This document shows, piece after piece, positions 25,324 through 26,793 of a stretch of 64,000 bases of DNA. Numbering within the stretch: position 1 is the stretch's first letter; the number at the start of each line of letters is the position of its first letter. This DNA is from Deltaproteobacteria bacterium (lineage in GTDB: Bacteria > Bdellovibrionota > Bdellovibrionia > Bdellovibrionales > JAMPXM01): contig JAFLCB010000015.1 of the NCBI GenBank assembly GCA_017302795.1, positions 1-64,000 on the forward strand, written 5' to 3'. The translations under genes were made by a program, and so were the position numbers. Below the pieces are notes generated by a model, which worked only from the letters and a program-made list of their open reading frames with translations, was not told the DNA's origin and made no database searches.

Positions 25324-26019
25324 ATGAGCTTTGGCAAAATGACTTTCGGCGTAAGCAGTCCGCTGTTAATAGCAGCGAGTATTTTATGGACGTCCTTTTC
25401 ACGGGTTCCGGAAGCGCAGGCAGAAGATTGGCGGACAGTCGAACTTGTACGCACGGAAGAAATGTCTGAAACCTCTGCGCCCGTTTTTCAAAGTAAAGAC
25501 CCAAAGGGACCCTTCGGAAAATCGAAAATTACGCTTCGATGCGCTGATGAAGGTTGGGGAAGCGTAAGCCTTGAGCGTGTTCGGGGTAGATTTGCGTTGG
25601 ATCATCAGTTGGGTTTGAAATCATGGCCTGAACTGACCAAGGCACTTGAAAAACAGACAGACGCCTACATACGTGGTGAACGTTTGAAGTTCCGAGAAAT
25701 TTTTGTTCAAGATGATTCTGGCCCGGAACATCCGCGCGATGAGCTTTCCGTTTTTGGCGATTCCGAAAAAGGCTATAAATATAAGTTCGCAAAATTTGAT
25801 GAGTGCTCGAAAGTTGACTCGGAAACTCTCAAGCCGGGGCAATCTTGCGTGGTCACGATGCAGATTAAAGGCACGTCAAAGAAAAGTGGTTCGGCAGGGC
25901 ACATTCGGTACCGATCCATCAAGTGTGAAGCAAAATCCAACCCGAATGTGACACCTGCAGCAGTGGGTAACGGCGCTGAGGATTCTCGCAGGAGCGGGAA
26001 GAGCGCAATTGCGCCGTAA
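25324..26019 (+). CDS. Secreted hypothetical protein
   Basis: A 231-residue protein with a signal peptide (MSFGKMTFGVSSPLLIAASI, cleavage probably near AQAED). The mature part has three cysteines, KITLRCADEGWGSVSLERV near 70 and VTMQIKGTSKKSGSAGHIRYRSIKC near 190, and a low-complexity tail. I do not recognise a family. A GAGGGGG ribosome site precedes the ATG. It is convergent with the riboswitch RNA, whose terminator lies 15 bases past this stop. Confidence 0.85.
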   Translation: MSFGKMTFGVSSPLLIAASILWTSFSRVPEAQAEDWRTVELVRTEEMSETSAPVFQSKDPKGPFGKSKITLRCADEGWGSVSLERVRGRFALDHQLGLKSWPELTKALEKQTDAYIRGERLKFREIFVQDDSGPEHPRDELSVFGDSEKGYKYKFAKFDECSKVDSETLKPGQSCVVTMQIKGTSKKSGSAGHIRYRSIKCEAKSNPNVTPAAVGNGAEDSRRSGKSAIAP

Positions 26020-26033
26020 TCAATTCGGAAAAA

Positions 26034-26067
26034 AGGCAAAAAAAACCCGCCGTGGGGCTGGCGGGGG
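26034..26067 (-). terminator. Strong intrinsic terminator of the riboswitch RNA
   Basis: On the minus strand CCCGCC (26065-26060) pairs with GGCGGG (26051-26046) around AGCCCCAC, followed by eight T residues (26045-26038). It lies about 110 bases downstream of the GEMM-I aptamer with no gene between, so it ends a short non-coding RNA. Confidence 0.88.
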
Positions 26068-26262
26068 AGAAGAAACCGGGTTTTCATGGCAGGCACCACG
26101 GCTCTTCTTTGTGTTGAATCCTCCCAGGTGGATGCTCAAGTGCTTTCTCGTCCTCTGGCAGACTGGCTGGCATAGCACGAACCGGCATATCATCGTTCGG
26201 CCTTAGCCCCTCTAGCTTTGCGTCCCGTTCTTTCAAACGGTTTGCCCTTAAGCTAAGGAAGG
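26040..26262 (-). ncRNA. Orphan c-di-GMP-I riboswitch RNA (merRNA-like)
   Basis: The minus strand at 26262-26165 carries the GEMM-I aptamer signature: AGGGCAAACC, a GTTT-GAAA-GAAC tetraloop hairpin, GGGACGCAAAGC, then GGGGCTAAGG and a second stem GCCGAAC/GTTCG. P1 forms between TAGCTT and AAGCTA. The RNA continues about 110 bases to a strong terminator and no gene lies downstream on this strand; the next one is convergent. Bdellovibrio bacteriovorus is known to make a massively abundant orphan c-di-GMP riboswitch RNA, merRNA, of this kind. I infer a homologue that may store or titrate c-di-GMP. The exact transcription start is not fixed by the sequence. Confidence 0.88.
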
Positions 26263-26793
26263 ATTTGTGATTTAGCTTTCTTATAGACCTCCTTCATTTC
26301 TAGAGTCCTACAAAAGCTTCTATGTCAGTTTCGGCCCGCTACTCGGGCGGTGGATCTGCGAATCTCATGTGAACCCCCTTTGTGGTTGGCGACAAAAATC
26401 CATCTCCATCGCTTGTTTTAAGAATACCGCAGAGTGCGGCTGGCCCAAAGTCGGGTGGCGCGAGAGGTGCACAATAGGACGATTTACGATTTGAAATGAA
26501 ACGCGCAGGAGCGCGCGAACGTCACTTGTCGTGTTGTTGAACGAATAAAATCGATTTAAATAGATGGGTTGTTTCGGGTTGAGGCAGAACAAGAGCTTAT
26601 TGGTAAAGACCTGCGGCATCATCGCGAATCATCTTTTTTCTGCGCTCGCGATTAGTCTCAACGACCTTTTCATACCGAGATTCTGCCAGCAAAATGAGAC
26701 AGTTTCTTGTTGTCGAAAATTTGAGCGGAATGCCTGACAATTGCGTCTCAGAAGAAGACGCTGTTTATCATCGAGACGGAAAACCAGTTTTTA
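26263..26793. other. Intergenic region upstream of riboswitch RNA and mrp
   Basis: About 530 bases without a gene I can support. It must contain the promoter of the riboswitch RNA at its left edge; GGTCTATAAG on the minus strand near 26280 is a possible -10 but no matching -35 is convincing. A small hairpin (CCCGCTACTCGGGCGG, 26335-26350) and an 85-codon minus-strand frame (26365-26622) are present; that frame has no family features. Confidence 0.5.

Follow-up and report, generated by a model that had tools for sequence, protein, structure and literature searches.

A putative merRNA gene with a conserved micropeptide reading frame 5' of an orphan c-di-GMP-I aptamer in a Bdellovibrionales genome

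An orphan aptamer with its own terminator

The window analysed here is a stretch of 64,000 nucleotides from a genome of the order Bdellovibrionales (contig JAFLCB010000015.1). Its minus strand carries a series of features that extends from a promoter-like hexamer to an intrinsic terminator (Table 1). Central to this series is a full-length match to the c-di-GMP-I (GEMM-I) riboswitch family RF01051 (model positions 1–87), which was obtained by cmscan of the 64-kb window (61.5 bits, gathering score 35, E 1.4e-9). The initial annotation had read a complete GEMM-I signature from this strand and had named the Rfam covariance model as the means of checking it; the match at 26256..26154 lies above the gathering score, with both the GAAA tetraloop and the CUAAG/UAUG receptor in place. 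Within its Rfam clan the aptamer matches c-di-GMP-I best, and c-di-GMP, rather than cGAMP, is its predicted ligand. No other Rfam family is matched around the aptamer, even at E<=1, and no second copy of RF01051 was found in the source genome. Free folding of the 235-nt region yields a stability no better than that of shuffled sequences (z 0.19); hence, the evidence is provided by the covariance model and by conservation, not by folding energy.

Table 1. Minus-strand features of the locus, in the order in which the RNA would be read (positions in the window)
Feature	Position	Strand	Evidence
-10-like hexamer TATTCT	26421..26426	-	from reading; inferred transcription start near 26414
Shine-Dalgarno sequence AAAGGGGG of the micro-ORF	26374..26381	-	6/6 match, spacing 6
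Micro-ORF, 9 codons and stop, ATGAGATTCGCAGATCCACCGCCCGAGTAG, MRFADPPPE-stop	26339..26368	-	frame-specific synonymous substitution; start and Shine-Dalgarno sequence in relatives
Hairpin GCCCG-AGUAG-CGGGC, stop codon in loop	26334..26348	-	Pro-codon strand pairing, permutation p 0.0026 (DPPP group)
Orphan Shine-Dalgarno-like AAGGAGGT, no start codon, between ORF and aptamer	26287..26294	-	conserved in order loci
c-di-GMP-I (GEMM-I) aptamer	26154..26256	-	61.5 bits; only copy in genome
Pyrimidine-rich stretch GGUUUCUUCUCCCCCGC, directly 5' of terminator, resembling GGUUUCAUUCCCC of Bdellovibrionaceae	26061..26077	-	by eye
Intrinsic terminator, 6 G-C pairs and 8 T	26038..26065	-	terminator scan

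The terminator (CCCGCC-N8-GGCGGG-T8) is the strongest of the terminator scan, and above-threshold terminators are likewise present in 66 of 75 loci of the order (none in shuffled sequences). It is followed by a convergent ORF of 231 aa on the plus strand (25324-26019), with no gene between aptamer and ORF. Hence, the aptamer has no gene within reach to control, and the regulated gene downstream on the same transcript that characterizes a c-di-GMP-I cis-riboswitch is lacking. An ordinary cis-riboswitch acting on a downstream gene might still be proposed for dps, which is located downstream on the same strand (25202-24723). However, both the terminator and the convergent ORF intervene before dps, dps is not a conserved neighbour of the aptamer locus across the order, and the downstream gene is mostly convergent there, so that we give this explanation almost no weight.

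Hexamers of the type TATTCT/TATACT are found at the equivalent place in many relatives. A sigma-70 promoter scan of the window called no promoter here, and for this reason we infer the start near 26414 from the hexamer. The transcript would probably be a stand-alone RNA of about 377 nt (approximately 26414 to 26038, minus strand). The interval 26034-26262, to which the RNA had initially been assigned, thus holds as its 3' half, and the RNA is probably about 150 nt longer on the 5' side.

Relation to merRNA and distribution in the order

The merRNA of Bdellovibrio is among the most abundant transcripts of the attack phase, and has been proposed to bind c-di-GMP in bulk (Karunker et al., 2013; PMC3627812). 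In strain HD100 it maps to 1,073,741-1,074,185 on the minus strand (Karunker et al., 2013; PMC3627812), and the RF01051 match of genome G039 (1073868-1073951, minus strand) falls within this range; given the agreement of coordinates and strand, we regard G039 as HD100 or as the same assembly. In HD100, 234 nt separate the mapped merRNA start from the beginning of the aptamer, and merRNA is composed of a 64-nt leader, a 12-codon ORF (MRTHEHHDDELK, then stop), the aptamer and the terminator.

RF01051 is present in 84 of 127 genomes of the order, with exactly one match each, and in 117 of 290 genomes of the phylum sample, again one each. Clustering of neighbouring genes in families f1, f3, f4, f6 and f9 places mrp and a 163-aa protein upstream, and mltD-/slt-like genes downstream. 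Of the two neighbours to which the initial annotation had drawn attention, mrp is therefore conserved, together with mltD/slt, and dps is not. In HD100 the flanking genes are partly changed, with an aminotransferase-like gene in convergent orientation. In G015, the match to mrp crosses one in-frame TAG (L367), which may be explained by error, pseudogene or recoding.

As judged from order, locus in many relatives and aptamer-terminator layout, the window RNA is the ortholog of B. bacteriovorus merRNA, i.e. a single-copy orphan aptamer RNA with its own terminator, and the suggestion that the merRNA system extends to this genome is supported. The original description had not detected conservation of merRNA beyond the Bdellovibrio lineage (Karunker et al., 2013; PMC3627812); by sequence comparison, the range now extends to six or more families of the order. 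The same description, of 2013, called merRNA non-coding, and here the window RNA departs from it, with a micro-ORF under apparent purifying selection. This micro-ORF is also present in the merRNA of HD100, and therefore it is the description of the family that is corrected, not the membership of the window RNA.

Proteins with GGDEF domains are encoded in 125 of the 127 genomes. Flagellin is missing from 15 genomes of the order, none of which has the RNA, as compared to 84 of the 112 with flagellin in which the RNA is present; this link is confounded, because the genomes without flagellin are reduced genomes of one family (f4). Phage records gave no match for the RNA. Two viral contigs of IMG/VR (L302, L303) match a c-di-GMP-I pattern.

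The 5' micro-ORF as a coding sequence

An RNA free of coding sequence, as implied by the initial annotation, is not supported: 5' of the aptamer, beyond the interval 26034-26262, there is a conserved micro-ORF. Its DPPP[KE]-stop pattern (GAYCCNCCNCCNRARTRR) occurs nowhere else in the source genome. Matching 5' ORFs are found in 54 of 77 aptamer loci of the order, HD100 merRNA included, and typically end in D-x-x-P-K/E-stop. The peptide follows the pattern M...LDPPP[EK]-stop in families f1, f2 and f4, and MK.RI[HF]DH[HN]D[KE].PK-stop in Bdellovibrio and Pseudobdellovibrio, with other forms elsewhere. No such ORF is seen in the remaining 23 loci, among them those of family f6 and of genera g27 and g37; the peptide is therefore not needed wherever the RNA exists. 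At aptamer loci outside the order, the 5' region yielded no comparable ORF. One locus of family f2 (L042, G022) displays two or three tandem micro-ORFs 5' of the aptamer (MSIAKFLRLDPPPE, MAKVKIFRLDPPPE and MKLHSKQWNLFPPPI, each followed by a stop). At three loci of family f6 (L040, L043, L048), where the 5' micro-ORF is absent, a proline-rich ORF led by AAGGAGG lies 3' of the aptamer and runs into the terminator (MDITPIFRPPYPPPK..., MGFNCCLHPPYSPQ with stop).

Several lines of evidence suggest that purifying selection acts on the micropeptide. A search for the C-terminal motif that did not require a start codon retrieved 47 of 77 loci in sense orientation, none of 77 in antisense and none of 694 control segments, and in 46 of these 47 loci an in-frame start is combined with a Shine-Dalgarno match of at least 5/6. 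Among single-base codon differences between genomes, 69-78% are synonymous in frame versus 3-16% in the other two frames, shares which are neither unbiased nor independent, since selection of the ORFs relied on a C-terminal amino-acid motif and the genomes compared are relatives. In the same comparison, the 33 nt after the stop yield 20-33%. The frames nonetheless differ strongly, and in the f9 group this difference extends to N-terminal residues outside the motif. Part of the change at third positions is accounted for by the hairpin that presents the stop codon in its loop, whose Pro-codon strand pairs better with the downstream partner of its own genome than with those of other genomes (DPPP group); this hairpin does not account for the fixed first and second positions.

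Six genomes (G018, G038, G044, G058, G116, G118) carry a free-standing DPPP[KE]-stop ORF with Shine-Dalgarno sequence and terminator and without an RF01051 match; Rfam in E-value mode likewise gives no c-di-GMP-I match at these six loci. In five of the six the ORF sits 166-1280 nt downstream of mrp. With ORFs without aptamer in these genomes, and aptamers without ORF in 23 of 77 loci, peptide and aptamer can thus each be lost. Nine further matches to DPPP[KE]-stop (L305-L308, L311, L325, L326, L332, L333) were discarded, as they are not free-standing micro-ORFs with Shine-Dalgarno sequence and terminator. A second ORF 3' of the aptamer in Bdellovibrionaceae (MEG..DWFHSP-stop) is not claimed as coding, because its nucleotides are fixed at all codon positions.

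Matching ORFs in relatives, frame-specific synonymous substitutions and retention of the ORF without the aptamer indicate that the label "non-coding" is probably wrong, and that merRNA is probably a micropeptide mRNA whose 3' part holds a c-di-GMP aptamer. The same evidence weighs against a purely non-coding reservoir, in which the RNA would soak up and release c-di-GMP, the 5' ORF being accidental or merely protecting the RNA: selection is frame-specific, start and Shine-Dalgarno sequence are conserved, and the ORF is retained where the aptamer is gone. Massive expression in the HD100 attack phase and the lack of an ORF downstream of the aptamer (PMC3627812), as well as the lineages that retain the aptamer without the ORF, speak in favour of such a reservoir, which on balance appears unlikely.

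The orphan AAGGAGG between ORF and aptamer matches AAAGGAGGT at six or more positions in 67 of 77 order loci, as compared to about 5% in shuffled sequences, and is rarely followed by a start codon. In most order loci its sequence is complementary to that of the 5' strand of P1 (CCUUCCUUU). This may suggest self-regulation: formation of P1 upon binding of c-di-GMP would free the orphan AAGGAGG and thereby change translation or stability of the micropeptide mRNA. However, pairing within genomes (16.5) is no better than between families (16.3), covariation is lacking, and the switch is not seen in predicted folds. Hence, we regard self-regulation as possible but doubtful, and the anti-P1 switch itself was set aside, conserved sequence being its sole support and the folds uninformative.

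A c-di-GMP-gated small RNA acting in trans would pair with mRNAs via the pyrimidine-rich stretch 5' of the terminator. In Bdellovibrionaceae GGUUUCAUUCCCCUU is nearly invariant at all codon positions, and the window contains a similar stretch (26077-26061); in other families of the order, however, the stretch is different, and this mode of action seems rather improbable. At L053 and other loci of Bdellovibrionaceae, GGUUUCAUUCCCCUUAG directly 5' of the terminator is nearly invariant and could be a pairing seed.

Working model and comparison with known systems

Comparison of sequences establishes that the gene is orthologous to merRNA and present as a single copy, that it occupies an orphan position and ends in a terminator, and that the peptide is under purifying selection. 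Based on this dataset, we hypothesize a merRNA gene whose stand-alone transcript combines a 5' micropeptide ORF with a 3' c-di-GMP-I aptamer and terminator, with no downstream target, and we consider it reasonably likely, and the best of the explanations, that this one transcript gives two products. In this organism the RNA would be both transcribed and translated, the micropeptide would act on its own, and the aptamer would bind c-di-GMP. If the RNA were as abundant as in the attack phase of HD100, it would bind much of the cellular c-di-GMP; such bulk binding is plausible. A narrower hypothesis, which we hold to be a serious candidate though short of an even chance, states that merRNA serves first of all as mRNA for a conserved Bdellovibrionales micropeptide of 9-19 residues, with c-di-GMP setting timing or amount via the 3' aptamer, and with the peptide rather than storage as the main function. 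Lowered merRNA has been reported in stator mutants with altered c-di-GMP (PMC11323537), which is compatible with any of these models.

For over a decade, the speculation about c-di-GMP storage has been the only footing for a role of merRNA. Conservation across the order, constant single copy and a micropeptide ORF under selection, which is retained even where the aptamer is absent, provide a concrete and testable alternative. An abundant c-di-GMP-I RNA in Bdellovibrio was already known; new here, on comparative grounds, are merRNA beyond Bdellovibrio across the order and a probable conserved micropeptide gene.

The window RNA shares with HD100 merRNA (PMC3627812) the order, the single-copy orphan c-di-GMP-I aptamer, the terminator of its own and the short 5' ORF. 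The peptide is different (MRTHEHHDDELK in HD100, MRFADPPPE in the window), the leader is shorter in the window RNA, which is a predicted transcript, and the published RNA was considered non-coding and confined to the Bdellovibrio lineage. With c-di-GMP-I riboswitches (GEMM-I, RF01051) it has aptamer sequence and fold in common, but its aptamer is without a regulated downstream gene and is placed 3' in a micro-ORF transcript. Dual-function small RNAs such as SgrS/SgrT combine a regulatory RNA with a small ORF. They resemble the window RNA as short single transcripts that join a structured part to a micropeptide ORF; their sequence is unrelated, and the structured part in the window is a metabolite aptamer. 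Outside the order, about 20 genomes of families f17, f20, f22 and f26 (L146-L171) carry an aptamer on the strand of queE and 85-310 nt upstream of it, and in some genomes this RNA is found without queE. It shares with the window RNA the single-copy c-di-GMP-I aptamer and a terminator, which often lies between aptamer and queE, but no 5' micro-ORF was found there and the flanking helices differ.
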